64,000 nucleotides of DNA from Macrocystis pyrifera (taxonomy: Eukaryota; Sar; Phaeophyceae; Laminariales; Laminariaceae): contig JASSKH010000020.1 of the NCBI GenBank assembly GCA_031763025.1, forward strand, positions 2,077,756-2,141,755, given 5' to 3'. The notes beneath the pieces were generated by a model, which saw only the letters and a program-made list of their open reading frames with translations, ran no database searches and had not been told where the DNA came from. A program made the position numbers and the translations under genes. This document shows, piece after piece, positions 3,575 to 62,039 of this stretch. Numbering within the stretch: the stretch's first letter is position 1; each line of letters begins with the position of its first letter.

Positions 3575-4160
3575 GGGGGGGGGGGGGGGGGGGGTGTACT
3601 CATTATCATGCATGGCCGTAGTCGTATGACCATGGACCATCGCATCCCTACAATGCCGGGACGGAGAACGTCGGGTTTTCACCAACCAGGCAGACATTGC
3701 TTACACCAAGCGCGAAGCGCCGTGCGGTGTTGTTGGGCGACTGATTCGCATGAAGGGTGAGCTGCATCCTACTAAGAACCGCTTTACAGGTGGACTTTCT
3801 TGCATATGGATGACAGCATCAATAGCTTTACAGGTGGACTTTCTTGCATATGGATTATCGCATCAATAAATTGATTTAATTTCTGGTGTGACCATTTCCA
3901 GAGACAGCAATGGGTTTACTATGTAACTGCCTCGTGGGTGCCTCACCATAGACACACTACGTAATACGAGCATCCCTCTTGTGCGGAGTGAAGGTTCTCT
4001 CCACACAAAAATGATCAACTCAACCGCCAGCCGTGGTGACGAAAAAAAAAAAAAAAAAAAACGGTACCCTGGCTGTGCAGCTCACGCGGTGAGAGGCGTG
4101 TTCTACAGCGTCGTCGCCAACCGACGCCAACCCAACCTATATATACCAGGTATATAATAG
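3575..4160 (-). mobile_element. PolyC-SINE copy, near full length
   Basis: Read on the minus strand this is a nearly complete copy of the poly(C)-tailed family. It starts near an AT-rich TATATA segment at 4160, runs through an internal A/T run (4041-4060) and the shared 3' tail, and ends in 20 C (G on plus, 3575-3594). The tail contains GGCCATGCATGATAATGAGT. A 46-bp internal segment (GCTTTACAGGTGGACTTTCT...) is tandemly duplicated around 3782-3870. Confidence 0.8.
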
Positions 4161-5243
4161 AGGGGGGTCACTGCTATGTGACCCCAAAGTTTGTATTGCG
4201 AAAGGATAGACCTGGAAAAGCAGGGTAGGCGTAATATTGCACCCGTAAATGGGATATGGGATCTGACGGAAAAATAAAGTAGATTCGCACGCGATCTGCC
4301 CTCCGGAATTAATTAGGGTCTATCGATGTTTTCCATTGAATTTAGAACCATGACATTTTGTCTTGTTTTTCTACAGATGATCGCAGATTTTCAAGGTCGG
4401 CCTACTCACAATCTGCCCTGACCTTGATCGTACATACCAGGGGGTTGGTTGGACCAGGTGTACAGACCGTGCAATTGTTTGAGGTATTCACGTGGAAACG
4501 TGCATATTTACCACGGATCGTGCCTGGCCATCGTAAATTGGGCCTTATCGGGACACCCGCATGATAACCACACCGTTGATAAAATGCAATCGCCCCCCCC
4601 TATGGTAATAAGGTGTAATGGATGCACCTCGTATTGTCGTTGGCACAGACATTACTCTGGAGTGATTTAGCACGTTACCGTTACATATAGCATGTCGTTG
4701 GTAACGTCCATCGATAGGCTACTTTCCCAACGAATTGCTGAGAGGCGGTAGTGTGTGTTGAAGAATAAGTGCCGTGGTTGGACGCTTTTAACGCCACCGA
4801 CAAAACGCTGTCGATGTACAGCTTGCACAATAGATTGCGTTCCACGATGGGTATCAATGTTACCGCGCACGCGTCGCGCATATATAGTCGGTCAGATGTC
4901 TTGGTGCATGACAAAAAAAAACACTTGACGACACGACATTATTAAAAAGGTCAAAACGAACAACACAGCAGTGTGGGGTGGCATTTTCTGCTCGACGTAA
5001 GAGCACACGAAAAACGGTATTTTCTTCAAATTTGGGTTCACCATGTTTCACTATACCCCCTGTCTGGGTCTCGGCAGGGGTTAGCGGGGTATCGGAATGG
5101 TTGATGTATATAGTACGTGCGTCAACCCCTGCAGAAACCATTGTTTGGTGTCTGGTTTCGGGTGTTCCCCCAGCGATACCGACCGTATCCCTGTGGATCC
5201 TGCTGATGAATGAAAAACTCGGCGTCCAATCACACTCGCGCAG
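4161..5243. other. Unassigned stretch before ankyrin exon
   Basis: No repeat family or exon was recognised. Overlapping ORFs on both strands lack any recognisable domain. A first exon of the ankyrin gene could lie here, but none can be identified. Confidence 0.4.
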
Positions 5244-5462: not shown

Positions 5463-8400
5463 GTGAGCAGGCCGGACATCTTCAGTTTAGAGTAAAACAA
5501 AACACGCACAGCAGTACTGTTAATTATGCAATTAATGAGTTCCAAGTATTAACCAAGGTCATCGGATTGTTCCTCGGTTGGAACGCCGAGACAGCGACTA
5601 AACTACTGTAGCAGGCCACGAGCACGAGCGGCGTGAGCGCCCAGCCGCAGTACGGCTGGGATTCATGTTGCGCCCGTACCCGTACGGCCTCTTACCTCAA
5701 CCATTGTGTCCCGGACACCAATCATTGTATCATGCCCCAAATACGTGGTGACCGTTGCTGTAATCGCCACTTTTGTCACCGTCAAAATGACCCCCTCTGA
5801 AGTCCCATAGGGTTTAATAGCAGGTATCAGAGGATGTCGACCGATTCTGTTTAGAGTTTTGAGTACGATTTAGTCTGAAATTTCTCACCACGTACATACT
5901 GCATGATAACCCAGGTTGTACATACTGCATGATAACCCAGGTTGTATAGCTGTAGTTCGGACGATATGCTGAATCCAAAGTGTGAACCATCCGTCATTCG
6001 GGCGTTCCAACCCCTACAATATTAAATAGCTTTTTCTTGGCATACCTTGGGGTTGGGTAAGGTATGGAGCTCAAGTGAATAGGAGTCGCAAACTATTTTG
6101 GTGGTATGAGAACCCCAATTTACCGTATATGCCACTCGTCACAAGCTTTTTATGGAAATACTTGCACCCCACATCCAATTCCGAAAAAAGGTAACGCGGC
6201 GCACGCAATCCAATGGCCACCTACTGCATTCCAATTGGCTAAGGTTCAAGATCGACTAGAATTGTACAACATGCTTAGGCTACATGATCATGATTTTCAT
6301 ATCCTGCTGTTCATGCGTAATTGCTTACCGCAGGTCCTAAAATGGGCTCGAGAAAACAGCTGTCCATGGGATGAGGAAGTCTGCGCATCGGCTGCTTCGG
6401 GCGGACACCTGGCGCTGCTGAAGTACTGCTGGGCGCATCGCTGTCCGTGGAACGAGTACACCTGCGAGCTAGCTGCGGAGGGGGGACACTTAGAGGTCCT
6501 GAAGTGGGCACGGTCTAAGGGATGTCCTTGGGACGAGGACGTCTGCGCCTTCGCTGCGGAAGAGGGCCACATGGAGGTCCGTCCGTCGTGAATCGTGTCC
6601 CTGAGTTGCAGAAACAACCATAGCAGTCTGTTCGAAATGAGGAAGTCCTTCGTCGGCCATTTCAGTAAACCTTCAGAGCCTTTTGGCTAACCTGAGCACG
6701 TTCCACGGACAGCGATGCGGGACCCCTGCTCGTTCTTTAGTGAACAAACGGCCAATAGACGCAGCTGCTGTTGTGTGAAGATGGGCACCCATGCCAGACT
6801 GCTGCTGCTGTCTCGTTGTCGCTGCGTAGGCCATCTGAGCAGTGCTCCATTCTAAGACGCAGAACCGTCCTCTCGGCGAAGTGAGCACGGCTTGGGGCAC
6901 GAGCAGCATGCGACGGGGGGGCTAACTGGTAGCCCTCTTCAGGACCCGGCCGTGTCAAAGACGGTCCGGTGTAATTCTCGCACTGTGAAAACGCAACTTT
7001 GACAAAACGATTAGAGTCAGACAACCATTTTCGAAAAATATAGGCAACCAGCAGAAAACACTACAGTAATATATCCTAACGCGCGCGCCCGCTCGATGAC
7101 TATTGAAGCGGATTGCGGAACTCTGGTCGCGCTTCGAGCGCCCTGCATATTTCTCCTTATTACAAGAACGATGGAAATGGAGAGCGTGATAGGGTAGACA
7201 GTAAGCTACTGCTGCGTTGGTGGTTCTTGTATAGGGCATGTATGTATTGTATGTATTGTGCACCACCACCAACTTACACCATCACGACCTTAGCTACAGC
7301 TGCAAGAAGTACATGCATAAGTTCCAAAAAAAAAAGTCACCGGCAACCTTTTACGTCTTGGGCCGCCGATATTTCGTCGCACCTGGGGCTGGCACGCCCT
7401 CCTGCATACTGCACGCAGATTTAGGCCCCGGGCGTGCTCTGTGGCGCGCGCTCTCGGCGCTCAAAGTCGCCGCCAGTTGGCTTTTTTCGAGGTATCGCTT
7501 TCCGTCCAGCCAAAGCCGAGCAGGCCAGTGGAAACCCCGAACAGTATTTTCGCCATGTTGTTGTGCTCTGATTATGTTTCTGATTTTTCCACAGAAGCTC
7601 TCAAAGGTTAGGCAGACACGGCACAAGAGCAGGCGCGCTTTCAAGTTGTTGCTTTTGTGACGACCGCCCCCAGTGTTTCTGCGTCTGTGCGTGTTTGTTT
7701 GTGTGTGTTTATGTCATCCTAGGATCCTACAGCCGTATGATGGAAACCAGGGACATGACCCCAAGAAGAGAGGTGCAATTTCAGCTTTTTTATAGTTTCC
7801 TTACTTTTCCTTAGCTGTCTGGTTTGGCTGGGGATTTGTTTCACACCGTAAGCTTTGGATGTTGTGGTAGCCATGGCCGAACGGCAGCCGTGTACCTCTC
7901 AGTTTTGTTTCGTGACAGGTAAGAACGGTGCCCCTGTGTATGCGTCTGTGCGCCCATGTGCGTGCCATTCCGAAGACAAACAAACGTTAATAAGCGTACC
8001 TACTTCGTACGAGTATCATTGGTTGCGGCACTGGTAATACGAGTTCTTCTTGAATCCCACTCACCTGCTCACCTACCCAGTCAACGCAGTCAACGGCAGC
8101 GTCACTGATATGTACCCGCATCGAGTTGTCCATCCGTGCTCGGTGTTCGATTTGTTTTTCGAGGAAACAAACATTTCCTACCTTCGGGATGACTAATTCG
8201 TGTTTGTGTTCTGCTTCGCTTATGTTTGCGTCTGTTTATGTAGTGCACATCCGCGCGGCCACCGCATCGAGTTGTCCATCCGTGCTCGGTGTTCGATTTG
8301 TTTTTCGAGGAAACAAACATTTCCTACCTTCGGGATGATTAATTCGTGTTTGTGTTCTGCTTCGCTTATGTTTGCGTCTGTTTATGTAGTGCACATCCGC

Positions 8401-9146
8401 GCGGCCACACGTGGAAATCCCGCGAGCACCACGAGCACTACTACTCGTTCCCACACCTCTCTTCGATATTAAGAAGCGCTGAAAAACGTAAACTCTCAAG
8501 AAACCATGCCTGGGCTCTTCTCTCCCCGAACGCAATCTATCCAATATATATTACTAGTACTGCTGCTGTGTCGAAGCCGGACCTGTTCAATTTTTGGTTT
8601 ATCGATATCGTACCATGCCTGATATTCATGGTACATGGTATAGAGCTACTAAACTGACCGTAGGTTAGCTCCGCTTCGGCCTCACTATGCTGCAAGTATT
8701 GAAGCCGGCAGTGAAGAAAAACAGGCCAGTATCAAAGGAACTGATCGAAAAGCTTCGAAAGACGATAAACGTCGAAATCGTACATATTTATTCAGTTTTC
8801 GTTTGTCGATATCTCGTAATGGATCGTATCGAACCCCGTTTTTTCTCCGGATTGGCCTCGCAACTGCAGCTATGGCTGTTGAAGTTGGCAGGCAGTGGAA
8901 AAAGCAGGCCGATATGAAGCTGAACGAAAGGTTTCAAGATATTCGTGGTCGAAAATCGATATCGTATGCACTCAATTTTCGCTCATTGATATCTCCCAAG
9001 GTACCATATTGAACCCCTTTTTTTCTGCTTTGGCCACGCTACTACTGCAGGTGTTGAAGTGGGCGGTGGAAAACGGGTGTCCCTGGGACAAGAGAGTCAG
9101 AGATTTCATGCCCGGTGGCGCATGCGGTTTTATAGCTTTGCATCAG
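5244..9146 (+). CDS. Ankyrin-repeat-like gene, partial, with decaying exons (gene span)
   Basis: Two good exons (5244-5462 and 6334-6576) encode tandem repeats of the type LKWARxxGCPWDxxxCxxAAxxGHLE, a variant ankyrin repeat family common in stramenopiles and some large viruses. Both exons start after CAG and break in phase 0 exactly between HLD/HME and the VLKW of the next repeat, so repeat units and exon borders coincide. Further downstream, 8690, 8880 and 9051 show the same acceptor plus VLKW start in increasingly damaged or divergent form. No first or last exon was found, so the gene may be partial or a pseudogene. Ankyrin repeats mediate protein binding; the partner is unknown. Confidence 0.5.
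5463..6333 (+). other. Intron between ankyrin exons A and B
   Basis: This 871-nt interval separates the phase-0 donor GTGAGC and the acceptor TTGCTTACCGCAG. It contains a perfect 28-bp tandem duplication (ACATACTGCATGATAACCCA...) at about 5887-5942. No other element was recognised. Confidence 0.5.
6334..6576 (+). CDS. Ankyrin-like exon B (81 codons)
   Basis: The exon follows the acceptor TACCGCAG and begins VLKWARENSCPWDEEVCA. It carries three tandem units, each with CPW, a Cys, an AA pair and GHL. The break after GHME at GTCCGT keeps phase 0 and matches the HLD end of exon A. If this donor is not used, the frame runs four more residues to a stop at 6591. The same frame is open upstream to 6106, but the protein similarity begins exactly at the acceptor. 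Confidence 0.72.
6577..7414. other. Unassigned intronic or intergenic stretch
   Basis: No exon or repeat family was recognised. If the ankyrin gene continues to 9 kb, this is intron. Confidence 0.35.
7415..7700 (+). repeat. Dispersed repeat, second copy at 54.34-54.64 kb
   Basis: The order GTGGCGCGCGCTCT, CTCAAAGTCGC, AGCAGGCCAGTGGAAACCCC and later CTTTTGTGACG is shared with 54340-54640. The two loci are about 47 kb apart. Neither copy has a convincing ORF and the element class is unknown. Confidence 0.5.
8117..8408 (+). repeat. Tandem duplication, 146-bp unit x2
   Basis: Two nearly identical 146-bp units (8117-8262 and 8263-8408) each start CGCATCGAGTTGTCCATCCG and end in CATCCGCGCGGCC. 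The near identity indicates a recent duplication. Confidence 0.85.
8580..9050 (+). repeat. Degenerate tandem intron-exon cassettes of the ankyrin gene
   Basis: Three blocks of about 175-190 bp share a segment like TCGATATC...ATCGAACCCC followed by a CTGCAG/CTGCAA acceptor-like site and a TTGAAG start. In block 1 (8690) the acceptor is CTGCAA|GTATTGAAG, so the AG is lost. In block 2 (about 8860-8905) the TTGAAG is displaced by an insertion. Block 3 leads into the intact acceptor at 9051. The blocks look like duplicated intron-exon units at different stages of decay. Confidence 0.55.
9051..9146 (+). CDS. Divergent ankyrin-like exon C (32 codons)
   Basis: The acceptor CTACTGCAG is intact and the reading starts VLKWAVENGCPWDKRV, matching exon B. 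The second half has lost the AA and GHLE signature. CATCAG|GTGAAC gives a donor that keeps phase 0. It may be a functional terminal variant or a relic. Confidence 0.4.
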
Positions 9147-15963: not shown

Positions 15964-16192
15964 AATGCAAGAAAGTCCGCCTCACACACATGCTCATTTT
16001 TTTTAGTAGGGTGCGACACACCGTTCACGCGACTCACCCAACACCTCACGGTGCTTGGTCCTCAAAGCAAACAGTGTCTACCTGGTCAGTGAAAACCGGA
16101 CGTTCTTCGTCCCGGCGTTGTAGGGATGCAAGGGTCTATGGTCATACGACTACGGCCATGCATGACAATGAGTACACTCCCCCCCCTCCCCC
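15964..16192 (+). mobile_element. PolyC-SINE copy, 5'-truncated
   Basis: The copy starts at the GCAAGAAAGTCCGCC segment, continues through ACCTCACGGTGC and GAAAACCGGACGTTC, and ends in GCCATGCATGACAATGAGTA followed by a C-rich tail interrupted by T. Confidence 0.8.
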
Positions 16193-25770: not shown

Positions 25771-25954
25771 GTTAACACCCCCCCGTATCACACGTGTGAC
25801 AAGATAACACCCCCCCTATCACACGTGTGATAAAATAACACCCCCCCCTATCACACTAGGGTGATAAGATAACACACCCCTATCACACTAGGGTGATAAT
25901 ATAACACACACCCTATCACACTAGGGTGATAAGATAACACCCTCCCTATCACAC
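25771..25954 (+). repeat. Tandem array of a MITE terminus, about 32-bp unit
   Basis: Five to six units of the form CCCCTATCACACTAGGGTGA followed by TAAGATAACAC. This is the terminal sequence of the 26031-26263 MITE, amplified in tandem next to it. Each unit contains the small palindrome TATCAC...GTGATA. Confidence 0.8.
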
Positions 25955-26032
25955 GGCATTGTAGGGATGCGAGGGTCTATGGTCATACGACTACGGCCAT
26001 GCATGATAATGAGTACACCCCCCCCCCCCCCC
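25955..26032 (+). mobile_element. PolyC-SINE 3' end inserted in the MITE-terminus array
   Basis: The copy begins at GGCATTGTAGGGATGCGAGG and ends in GATAATGAGTACA plus 15 C. TATCACAC precedes and follows it; this may be a target duplication or simply neighbouring array units. It is a strong 5' truncation. Confidence 0.8.
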
Positions 26033-26263
26033 GTATCACACTAGGGTGATAAGATAACACACCTGCTCGCACGATTTTCAAAGCTAGGTTTTTCGACAAC
26101 GGGGAGGGCGCGTACGCCGAGCGATGCCTCTACGCAAACTTCTCGACGAAATATTTCCTAAGCCGCCATCTTCGTTGTGTGCCCCCCATGCTTTGGAGGA
26201 AACCAAACCGCGTCTGTAATTCGTCCCAGGGGGTGTGTCATCTTATCACCCAGTGTGATACGG
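26031..26263 (+). mobile_element. TIR MITE of about 230 bp, type copy
   Basis: The terminal inverted repeats are about 33 bp: CCGTATCACACTAGGGTGAT at the left and GGTGTGTCATCTTATCACCC...GATACGG at the right. The interior has no ORF. Related copies are at 24185, 13295 and partly 51910. Confidence 0.8.
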
Positions 26264-28620: not shown

Positions 28621-28727
28621 TATTACGGGGGGGCATAGTAAATGGGACCAAATATTGTTAGTAAAATTATGGAAATATATGCGTGTTTGTGTGTACCGTA
28701 GGTCCTGTTAACTATGGTCCCCCGCTA
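28621..28727 (-). mobile_element. TTACGGGGG MITE (110-bp family)
   Basis: Left end TATTACGGGG, right end GGTCCCCCGC; the internal order is reversed relative to the copy at 52194. No coding capacity. Confidence 0.8.
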
Positions 28728-37559: not shown

Positions 37560-38785
37560 GGCCTTGGCGTCACGGACAGTGTTATTGTCTCAGAAACGCC
37601 CGCTGGAAGAGAAGGTCAAAACCCACAACAGAAAAAGGACAGGGGTCGAAATGAAGGCAACAAGAAATGCTAGGACCAACGCAGAAGAAGAATGCAGAAA
37701 CTTGAAAAAGAGTCAAAAGAGGTACCAAAAAGAGTCAAAAGAGGTACCACAAGACAAATAATGCAGAAGAAGGAGGCGGAACACAGGGGACGGCCGTGTG
37801 CGTCAGGGCTCGTAAGTTCAGCACATGAGTCGGCCCGGGTATAGGAGCGCAGGGCCGGTCATCAAGCGAATACGATGGAGGTACGCAAACGGAAACACCA
37901 CACGGTAGCGTGGAACGTAGTTGATGATGAAGCCGGTGAAGAAGAAAGCGTCGACGTCGGTCGAAGTCGATGGATTCCTGTAGAGAGAGGTTGTCGTCTT
38001 GCAACATAAACCTTGCTCACCAAGTACTTGGAGACAGGGTCCTCCAGGGTATCCACGCCCCGCGTACGCGCGCCCACGTAGACTTTTCCGGGCCCTCGAC
38101 TCTGCCGAACACACCCCCCGCGAACGCGAGGATTCCAGCCAGCGCCGTCCATCGATGTGGTCGGAGGCTATCTTGACTGGACACCATCAGGCGGGCTCCG
38201 ACTTTAAGCACTCCGAGAAACAGACTGAGCCCTATATGCACAAAGTCTAACTCCCTTCATCCTGCCACGCTGCCGTGCTGTTTAAGCTACTCAGTCCCAT
38301 CGTGGCACAAGACACCTACCTACAAGTATCTGCCTACCTACCTGCCAGGAAGCAGGCGTTTCTCTTACTTGGAACAGGGTGCTTTTTTTTCCCATCACCA
38401 CTACTGCAACAGCATTACCAAATATTATACTGGTATACTTACATATTTACGACTGCTGCTACCGCTACTGTGCCACGGCTTACATTATGTTATTTATGCA
38501 GATATACACTCCGTACATGCTTGTGTCCTATGCTCGTATAACTAAAATGCATGTTCCCGGCTGTATCGAGCCTGTGTTTTGCGCTATGCCGGAAAGTGCA
38601 GCCTGTCTTTGCCTGTTGGTGGTGTTGCGCGCTTGCTCTACTGTCTCTAACTTCATCTTCCCGAACCCAACGCTGTATAATTAATTATCCTTTCAGCTTC
38701 GAAATCCTATTAGCCGCACTCAGTAGGCTCCCTCACCACACGACACATGGATGAGTGCGGGTCTTCCCCCCCCCCCCCCACCCCC
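37560..38785. other. Unassigned, with a GC-rich coding-like patch (minus, about 37790-38240)
   Basis: On minus three frames are open in succession. One segment reads KVYVGARTRGVDTLEDPVSK, and a later one, in another frame, FFFTGFIINYVPRYRVVFPF. A possible mini-intron (TTG|GTGAGC...CTCTACAG) does not restore the frame. It could be a frameshifted relic of an unknown gene. Confidence 0.25.
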
Positions 38786-38841
38786 GTCTCGAAAGGGATG
38801 CGTGGTCAATGGTCTAATGACTAAGGCAAGCAACAATGAGT

Positions 38842-38875
<34 letters not shown>
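38786..38875 (+). mobile_element. LINE 3' tail copy with 33-nt poly(C)
   Basis: GTCTCGAAAGGGATGCGTGG, TCAATGGTCTAATGACTAAG and CAACAATGAGTAC match the end of the LINE at 61400-61482 and are followed by 33 C (38843-38875). Confidence 0.85.
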
Positions 38876-39104: not shown

Positions 39105-39240
39105 CCACCGGTGGAGGTAGGTGCCCCGGTTAGGAGAAGGAGCAGTGCTCTGCCTCGAAAAAAATGAGTTTTCGATGGTGCAAGTGACTCAAGGCAAGCA
39201 AAAATGAACGAGTGTCCCCCTACCCCCCCCCTCCCCCCCC
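39105..39240 (+). mobile_element. LINE 3' tail copy, diverged
   Basis: GGAGGTAGGTGCCCCGGTTA, GGAGCAGTGCTCTGCCTCG, AAGGCAAGCAAAAATGAACG and a C/T-interrupted C tail follow the LINE order. Confidence 0.7.
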
Positions 39241-44072: not shown

Positions 44073-44237
44073 CATAGCAAACGTGTCCACGCAGTAAATG
44101 AAAACAACTTGATGAGCGCTCAGCTAGTGAAGGTGTGTCTCTGTCAGGAGTAGGACCGGTGCTCCCCGTCGAAAGGCATGCGTGGTCAATGGTCGTATTT
44201 CTAGACCAAGCAACATACTAGTACGCCCCGCTCCCCC
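44073..44237 (+). mobile_element. LINE 3' fragment with tail
   Basis: GAAAACAACTTGATGAGCGC, GAAGGTGTGTCTCTGTCAGG, AGTAGGACCGGTGCTCC and GGCATGCGTGGTCAATGGTC match LINE positions 61340-61482. Unlike the tail-only copies this includes part of the coding region. Confidence 0.75.
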
Positions 44238-44973: not shown

Positions 44974-45041
<68 letters not shown>

Positions 45042-45339: not shown

Positions 45340-45379
<40 letters not shown>

Positions 45380-50172: not shown

Positions 50173-60076
<9,904 letters not shown>

Positions 60077-60589: not shown

Positions 60590-60770
60590 CGGGAGCCGTC
60601 TATCAAATCTGCATAATCAGCAAGCTCGTATTTTTTTGTTTGGTTCTGCATCTATCAACCGATGCTGCATAACAGATCAAAACGTTAGCTTAGGATCTGT
60701 ACATGATCTATCTGTAGATGGTCTGATCTATGCGACGTGTGAAACGTTTCCCGAGTTGACGCCCCCCCCC
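60590..60770 (+). repeat. GATC-rich block ending in C-run, copy 1 (left of LINE)
   Basis: GTTTGGTTCTGCATCTA, TAGCTTAGGATCTGTACATG, GATCTATCTGTAGATGGTCT, GTGAAACGTTTCCCGAGTTG and C9. Copied at 61590-61738. Confidence 0.65.
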
Positions 60771-61477
60771 CTAGAGAAATAAGGTGGGATGGCGTAGTTG
60801 AGGAAGCATGGAAGGATATAGGGGGAAACCAAGAAGAGATGGTGTCCGCCGGGAAGTTTGGGAGGTACAAGGCAGAAGTAGAAGAAAGGATAGAAAGTAG
60901 GGAAAGGCTAGCGCTAAGAAACAAGGTGGAATCGGGAAAAAAAAAAACACTTTTAGAGATATACGGGGGATTGAGGGAAGGAATAGGAATGAAAACGTAT
61001 TTGCACGGCCCAATGGACTTCGCGAAAACGCTGAAACTGCGCTTTCGTGTAGGGGACCTGGACCTGCCAGAAAGAAGAAAGAGGTACACCAGTAGCCGGG
61101 AGGAAGTAGATGCACAGATGCGCCTGTGTGGCAAAGCAATAGAAAGTAGAACTCACATAGTAGGAGAATGTGAATTACACAAGGAGGAACGGGATGTGTT
61201 AGAAGAGGAGATGAGGAAAATAGACGAATGTGACATGGAGGAGTTTGATACATTGCATAGCAGCGAGAAAACGATCGCTATCCTAGGAGATAGATGGTGG
61301 CCACAGGCGGCCAAACAGGAAGGGGATAAGATTAGCAAAAAGTTTCTATGTAATATATGGAAACAACGTAATGAGCGCCCAATTGTTGGAGGTGTCTCTA
61401 TTAGGAGTAGGAACGGTGCTCCGTCTCGAAAGGGATGCGTGGTCAATGGTCAAATGACTAAGGCAAGCAACAAATGA
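60770..61477 (+). CDS. LINE ORF2-like C-terminal region, 5'-truncated
   Basis: An open frame of about 234 codons without a proper start. It reads FRVGDLDLPERRKRY, then CGKAIESRTHIVGECELHKE, a C-x14-C spacing with a His in between that resembles the zinc-binding region after reverse transcriptase in non-LTR retrotransposons, and RWWPQAAKQ, IWKQRNERP near the end. RT and endonuclease are missing because of 5' truncation, as is typical of LINE insertion. The stop (61475-61477) lies only five bases before the poly(C) tail. Confidence 0.72.
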   Translation, partial: PREIRWDGVVEEAWKDIGGNQEEMVSAGKFGRYKAEVEERIESRERLALRNKVESGKKKTLLEIYGGLREGIGMKTYLHGPMDFAKTLKLRFRVGDLDLPERRKRYTSSREEVDAQMRLCGKAIESRTHIVGECELHKEERDVLEEEMRKIDECDMEEFDTLHSSEKTIAILGDRWWPQAAKQEGDKISKKFLCNIWKQRNERPIVGGVSIRSRNGAPSRKGCVVNGQMTKASNK

Positions 61478-61495
61478 GTACGCCCCCCCCCCCCC
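60770..61495 (+). mobile_element. Poly(C)-tailed LINE, 3' part
   Basis: The coding remnant plus ATGAGTACG and 13 C. The final ~80 nt recur at 38786, 39105, 44073 and 58139, and in diverged form at the end of the PolyC-SINE family. The 5' end joins directly to the C-run of the preceding repeat. Confidence 0.78.
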
Positions 61496-61589
61496 GCCTG
61501 GAGGAAAAAAAAAAAAACAAAAAAACAGAGAGCTTGACCCAGGCGAGCAGACCAGCTGCGGCAGAAAATATCAGGATTGTTTTCCTTGT

Positions 61590-61738
61590 TTGGTCCTGCA
61601 TCTACTGAAAATCCTGCACAACGTATCATAACGGTCGGTTAGGATCTAGATGATCTATTCGTAGATGATCTATCTGTAGATCATATACACGTCCGACGCG
61701 CGAAACGTTTCCCGGGTTGATCCCCCCTCCCCCCAAAA
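61590..61738 (+). repeat. GATC-rich block ending in C-run, copy 2 (right of LINE)
   Basis: TTGTTTGGTCCTGCATCTAC, CGGTTAGGATCTAGATGATC, GCGAAACGTTTCCCGGGTTG and a C/T run match 60590-60770. Confidence 0.65.
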
Positions 61739-62039
61739 AAAAACCAGAGAAAACCGAAGCTATCAGCAAGACCAGTTGAGGCAGAAAATATCAAGCTTGA
61801 GTCGTGCCACGTCAGAAAGGAAGTAAGCACCCAGCCATGGATGACGTACAACGCTTCTCAGCTTCCCTACACGACGCTAACAACATGGGGAGGTGTGCAC
61901 ATACCAGCTACGCCTCGACTAAAACCTGAGCCTGGAGGGAAAATGCACGCGCATTCTGACGGACAGCAAGTCCCATGGCCTATACATGTACCTTCATAAA
62001 AATATCTGTGCACCGCGGGCAGACAATCGACTCCAACTT

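Follow-up and report, generated by a model that had tools for sequence, protein, structure and literature searches.

A LINE and its short partner in Macrocystis pyrifera lie in fixed orientation within C-runs, the probable landing sites of both elements

Pairs of a LINE and a short partner with a common 3' end are already known from brown algae. In Ectocarpus, the RTE-X LINEs RTEX-1 and RTEX-2_Ec32 share their 3' end with RTEX-N1_Ec32, a non-autonomous element of about 600 bp that its describers, in the sections of the paper available to us, hesitate to call a SINE and whose 5' region they leave without an assigned origin (PMC12477816). The words poly, homopolymer and insertion preference are absent from the main text of that paper. 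Simple repeats at the ends of LINEs are known from other lineages; according to excerpts of the respective papers, the RTE elements of Lepidoptera combine endonuclease (EN) and reverse transcriptase (RT) domains with an extremely short 3' UTR, many 3' partial copies and a 3' simple repeat that is part of the element and undergoes slippage (PMC2887409), and Togen, which inserts into (TG)n, is grouped with NeSL-related elements, members of a clade with a restriction-like endonuclease (PMC4640811). Most target-specific LINEs, including those specific for simple repeats, are placed in the early-branched, Tx1 and R1 groups in the available part of the latter paper (PMC4640811), and among the tails named in the accessible portion of a review are poly(A), TTG, TAA, TGTAA and poly(T) (PMC3747384). 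Our search of the literature, much of it in partial text, found no C-homopolymer target or tail; this is weak evidence of absence, bracketed terms such as poly(C) being unsearchable.

The system that we describe here in Macrocystis pyrifera resembles that of Ectocarpus in joining, in a brown alga, an abundant LINE and a non-autonomous partner with the LINE 3' end, but the 5' end of the kelp partner itself resembles that of the LINE. It has the domains, the extremely short 3' UTR, the 3' simple repeat and the many 3' partial copies of the lepidopteran elements; in kelp, however, the repeat unit is C, and the repeat also lies on the 5' side, as the probable target. Like Togen, the kelp LINE inserts into a simple repeat, but it is of the APE type and its target appears to be a C homopolymer. 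We consider it likely that this APE-endonuclease LINE and its derivative of about 520 nt use target-primed reverse transcription to enter poly(C)/poly(G) tracts, and that what looks like a poly(C) tail is mainly a landing site. If real, a LINE aiming at C homopolymers would extend the targets of APE-type LINEs to a new kind, and be an example of how an apparent tail can be a target.

We analysed a window of 64,000 nt (assembly GCA_031763025.1, contig JASSKH010000020.1, positions 2,077,756 to 2,141,755, forward strand); genome-wide counts refer to the whole assembly of 537,376,219 bases in 223 contigs. The focal LINE fragment and the other features of the window are listed in the table, together with the six clearest target-site duplications. 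The open reading frame of the focal LINE ends in SNK and a stop codon (AACAAATGA), followed by a 3' UTR of 5 nt, GTACG, and then by the C-run; since the stop codon lies only 5 nt ahead of the run, the tail that the LINE shares with its short partner is coding sequence in the LINE. The run of ten C directly 5' of the fragment had no place in the first-pass annotation, which recorded 3' C-runs.

Table. Features of the window and the clearest target-site duplications (positions are those of the window; runs are given as C with their length)
Feature	Position	Strand	Details
C10 run	60762-60771	+	5' junction of LINE fragment, upstream part of putative target tract
5'-truncated LINE (focal)	60772-61482	+	C-terminal part of RT ORF; first few junction bases ambiguous
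C13 run	61483-61495	+	3' end of focal LINE
Paralogous empty site	61567-61799	+	both focal LINE flanks joined by CCCCCCTCCCCCC, without LINE
32-bp tandem repeat	25773-26050	+	C-run or C-rich stretch in each unit
Near full-length short element	56744-57242	+	C13 after (57243-57255); C12 (56727-56738) and TCACC before
Truncated short element	56587-56701	+	C21 before (56566-56586)
Truncated short element	57748-57864	-	C25 before (57868-57892)
Truncated short element	57487-57623	-	C27 before (57631-57657)
Very short 3' fragment	50827-50854	-	flanked by C152 (50855-51006) and C52 (50775-50826)
59-nt LINE 3' end	38784-38842	+	flanked by C14 (38766-38779) and C33 (38843-38875)
Near full-length short element	3595-4161	-	3' C20 (3575-3594); 5' C6 (4162-4167)
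Diverged LINE 3' end	44102-44225	+	
Diverged LINE 3' end	39119-39222	+	C9TC8 after
Diverged LINE 3' end	58198-58255	-	flanked by C13 (58256-58268) and C8TCCCCTC45
Duplication, locus L047			CCC/CCCC (5'/3' run) + ATCTAATATCT; whole example CCCATCTAATATCT
Duplication, locus L049			C4/C5 + TGTCTCCTATT
Duplication, locus L065			C5/C7 + TGTTTCCT
Duplication, locus L022			C7/C19 + GTACCAGGT; example C7GTACCAGGT
Duplication, locus L031			C9/C18 + TCGTAACT
Duplication, locus L032			C14/C15 + GAGGTGAT; example C14GAGGTGAT

There are copies related to the focal LINE at about 90% protein identity, and longer copies with both EN and RT. At L043 a single open frame extends over 1137 codons, after which the frame is broken, with matches to Exo_endo_phos (9.5e-11, residues 188-340) and RVT_1 (1.7e-29); the copy at L031 also matches RVT_1 (3.2e-29). 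R2 and LINE-1 ORF2 are among the ten PDB matches of the RT, and the EN alone has no match in PDB at E 0.01. An RT domain with an AP-endonuclease-like domain upstream of it, 5' truncation and target-site duplications are together the marks of a non-LTR LINE of the APE type, and the extremely short 3' UTR leading into a simple repeat is a trait of RTE and RTE-X elements; for the clade name RTE-X the Ectocarpus paper provides a lead. The copies at L043 and L096 begin alike with CACAAAATCT.., behind which monomers of about 130 bp are repeated in tandem (L043:1027-1703, in the 5' region of the LINE, and likewise in L096), and we estimate the full LINE at about 5.9 kb. Both have C-rich upstream flanks, that of L096 being C9TCCTCGCATTC.

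The common 3' end of LINE and SINE claimed in the first-pass annotation stood up to alignment: 72 of 87 aligned bases are identical within a shared stretch of about 90 nt, with a local score of 71 where 2000 dinucleotide shuffles reached at most 39. A seed from the SINE end occurs at 18 places in the window, one of them the focal LINE itself, and a seed from the LINE end at 13, of which five are LINE ends (near 61360, 44102, 38784, 39119 and 58255) and the others short-element copies; these numbers agree with the roughly 17 SINE copies and five LINE ends counted earlier. Across the genome, CCC comes directly after the exact LINE 3' end at 1917 places and a letter other than C at 100 (reversed-pattern controls, 0). 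In the 100 exceptions the next letter is mostly T or A and seldom G. The exact 53-letter end of the short element occurs 316 times. A protein search with the C-terminal 234 aa of the LINE gave 18729 first-look candidates, against 1724 with the 201 aa before the RT, which bears out the earlier description of the copies as mostly 5'-truncated. The 30 best LINE matches have a median divergence of 1.2% from their own majority over 640 nt, a value that understates their age because the set was picked by similarity.

The short element is about 520 nt long and starts with CTATATTATATACC. Its nt 26-68 are 88% identical to nt 17-59 of the LINE, and the two 5' ends align with a score of 77 (75 with a second LINE copy) against a maximum of 31 in 1000 shuffles; its middle (nt 86-415) does not align with the LINE above shuffles. 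The element does not qualify as a classical SINE: the 3' tail common with a LINE is there, but five consensus patterns for Pol III A and B boxes found none in one full-length copy, a run of nine T lies at nt 102 of the 517 nt of the copy scanned, and the 5' end is LINE-like. A tRNA search of the window found no tRNA, and an Rfam search with the short element at L071 found no match at E 1; together with the lack of boxes, this leads us to reject a tRNA, 5S or 7SL head. In the window as a whole, Rfam at E up to 1 gave nine matches, all below gathering scores, eight to miRNA families and one to an sRNA. The short partner is best read, from its sequence, as a LINE-derived non-autonomous element that has the two ends of the LINE and, between them, foreign or diverged sequence; the earlier notion of a LINE with a dependent short partner is supported, and the LINE enzymes would be what moves the partner. 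Its LINE-like 5' end suggests where the unplaced 5' end of other brown-algal non-autonomous partners may have come from. RNAalifold predicted no conserved pairs in 16 aligned ends of the shared tail; single folds of both tails contain a small TGGTC-N4-GACTA hairpin, without backing from covariation. A search for relatives in viral contigs gave four stretches that fit a pattern, none of them confirmed.

Most copies of both elements lie in fixed orientation in C-runs, with C-runs left on both sides. Copies with a 3' end, 146 by BLAST in the window and at loci L001-L074, were reduced to 133 by removal of duplicates and of copies with too short flanks, and to 119 by dropping 14 copies (seven groups) whose 5' start was ambiguous; of 20 new loci, 19 were then added and one was dropped for a shared flank, to give 138. 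This sample is not random: most of the LINE loci are top protein matches, and short-element loci are the first 50 in a contig-ordered list of exact 53-mer matches. In 95 of the 138 copies, the 25 nt upstream of the element contain a run of six or more C, and in 118 copies the 25 nt downstream do, against a background of 0.025 of 25-mers, measured on the window with its elements included. By class, the upstream run is found for 34 of 45 LINE copies, 40 of 64 truncated short elements and 21 of 29 full-length ones. A control stretch 45-70 nt upstream has such a run in 21 of 118 copies, and none of 119 has six or more G on either side. Genome-wide, eight C occur within 25 nt before the last 53 nt of the LINE in 510 reverse-strand matches, against one for eight G, and in 3263 forward-strand matches, against none; the forward figure counts every overlapping start, and the reverse one has a single entry per site among the matches listed. 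In the window, of the 46 C-runs of ten or more, 12 immediately follow a same-strand element and 11 immediately precede one (one run does both), 24 adjoin neither element, and on the opposite strand no run of this length is within 40 nt of an element end. Among the 27 of 138 copies without even four C in the 25 nt upstream, some have, by eye, misplaced 5' boundaries (the window copies near 16067 and 49793, where element sequence continues upstream) and others have impure or short runs (L047 and the window copy at 25956); the rest are unexplained and tell against the target reading.

Target-site duplications were resolved in 10 of 116 copies, in each of which the C-run is followed by five or more letters common to both flanks. 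For this count, the null from mispaired flanks has a mean of 1.24 and a maximum of 5 (300 shuffles), and the three weakest of the ten are within reach of mispaired flanks; a looser test found duplications in 22 of 119 copies, against 2-8 in eight mispaired sets. The resolved duplications consist of the C-run and 5-11 further bases. The six clearest are 13-22 nt long, and the remaining four (L054, L029, L023 and one window copy) are either shorter or part of interrupted tracts. The insertion by target-primed reverse transcription expected in the first-pass annotation is supported, with duplications above the null; that no more than ten of 116 copies have five or more letters duplicated beyond the run counts against the target reading.

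The C-run was already present in both paralogous empty sites of the window, which are paralogous repeats and not orthologous alleles. At the site near the focal LINE (61567-61799), the left flank scores 150 (maximum of 200 shuffles, 41) and the right flank 75 (maximum 40). A search with the left flank for further empty sites gave 43 matches (40 of 53 candidates scored), among which only the site itself and the neighbouring repeat cover the whole query. The second case is the 32-bp tandem repeat, whose unit at 25936 holds a truncated short-element copy (about 25956-26017) with a C-run and TATCACAC on both sides. Free units consist of AACA, seven or eight C, and TATCACAC, with a G following the run in one of them; two units are impure. 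The occupied unit reads CCCTCCCTATCACAC, the element, 15 C, G and TATCACAC. In most copies, then, the simple repeat stands on both sides of the element as well as in the paralogous empty sites, as for a target-specific LINE. Duplications that include the run, runs on both sides and runs already present in the empty sites lead us to conclude that the C-run is mainly target; its earlier description as a tail is not supported.

We envisage that the APE endonuclease would nick the G strand, either at the C-run or within it, and that reverse transcription would be primed there, a nick position and priming strand that we infer from the insertions; a cut of the other strand further downstream would then duplicate the C-run and leave it on both sides of the insert. 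Additional C on the 3' side, as many copies have, could come from homopolymer slippage, later expansion or a C tail. Of the runs directly at the junctions, the 3' one is the longer in 29 of 64 copies of the short element and in 21 of 39 of the LINE. Human L1 nicks at TTTT/AA and is primed by pairing with its poly(A) tail. The kelp elements would be like L1 in that a homopolymer RNA end pairs with a homopolymer target and the duplication begins with the homopolymer; they differ in using G/C instead of A/T, and in that the kelp partner shares a specific 3' sequence.

An alternative possibility is that a poly(C) tail terminates the RNAs and is recognised by the reverse transcriptase, and that C-runs at the insertion site play no special role. 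We regard this as unlikely, and reject a poly(C) tail as the sole explanation in view of the 5' C-runs, but several observations point towards a tail. The lengths of the 5' and 3' C-tracts are not correlated (119 copies, rho 0.10, p 0.26), and among the 24 copies whose 5' tract is below 6 the median 3' tract is 15; long 3' tracts despite short 5' tracts are expected of a tail and count against the target reading. Among the ten copies with duplications, the 3' run exceeds the 5' run in six, equals it in one and falls short of it in three. In the tandem repeat, 15 C adjoin the short element, against the seven or eight of free units, and RTE elements with simple-repeat ends and a very short 3' UTR are on record in the part of PMC2887409 that we cite. 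A tail does not, however, account for the 5' C-runs in 95 of 138 copies, for the 510-to-1 reverse-strand contrast, or for the runs within duplications and in paralogous empty sites. Moreover, four resolved copies (L047, L032, L049 and L065) gained just one or two C, against gains of 9 at L031 and 12 at L022, and another base interrupts 55 of 119 3' tracts. A C-run target may be joined by a C tail or by slippage.

It is very unlikely, in our view, that the enzymes have no target preference and that copies merely nest in the C-runs left by earlier copies. Nesting does occur, as at L032, L068, L074, L029 and L095, and a crude motif test places an element end within 70 nt upstream of 32 of 138 copies. 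However, 67 of the other 106 copies still have six or more C upstream, and nesting into C-runs would itself be a preference for C-runs. An artefact of long-read assembly or of homopolymers is scarcely credible: run lengths in the PacBio assembly may be inexact (PMC10498591, in part), but errors of run length would not yield an orientation bias, C-runs on two sides, duplications or interrupted tracts.

Insertion into C-runs is also a possible source of the extraordinary poly(C) load of this kelp genome. C-runs of at least 15 number 82,393, as against 34,939 A-runs of this length, a more than twofold excess, and 5,824 of the C-runs directly follow GAGTACR (reversed control, 4). The figures given in a portion of PMC2211496 are 396 G/C tracts in C. 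elegans and 200 in human, but these are tracts of 18 or more and not strictly comparable with ours. It is conceivable, if somewhat doubtful, that the family creates the sites in which it lands, with two C-runs, often lengthened, left by every insertion, and that the 82,393 runs are largely such a product of retroelements. If so, insertions would breed targets, making this a self-seeding target system, of which our literature search found no description.

Several other repeats in the window were noted. On the minus strand, one at 44974-45041 and 45340-45378 ends twice in ..CTACATTAGCATTGCG(C)n, unlike the LINE end by eye, and could represent another C-run-associated family; at 50467-50633, also on the minus strand, two similar stretches end in C-runs, ..AACACCACT with 14 C and ..GACACCGCTCT with 11. 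Small repeats whose ends are inverted, as in GGGGGACCATAGT..ACTATGGTCCCCC, lie at 28627, 30303, 30417, 52293, 53853 and 62608, and the truncated LINE at L010 sits at the CCCCC of such a repeat. An open reading frame at 6079-6591 has weak similarity to ankyrin repeats (Ank_4, E 0.0024, below the cut-off), and 8116-8408 holds two copies of a 146-bp unit that match at 99%, a recent duplication.
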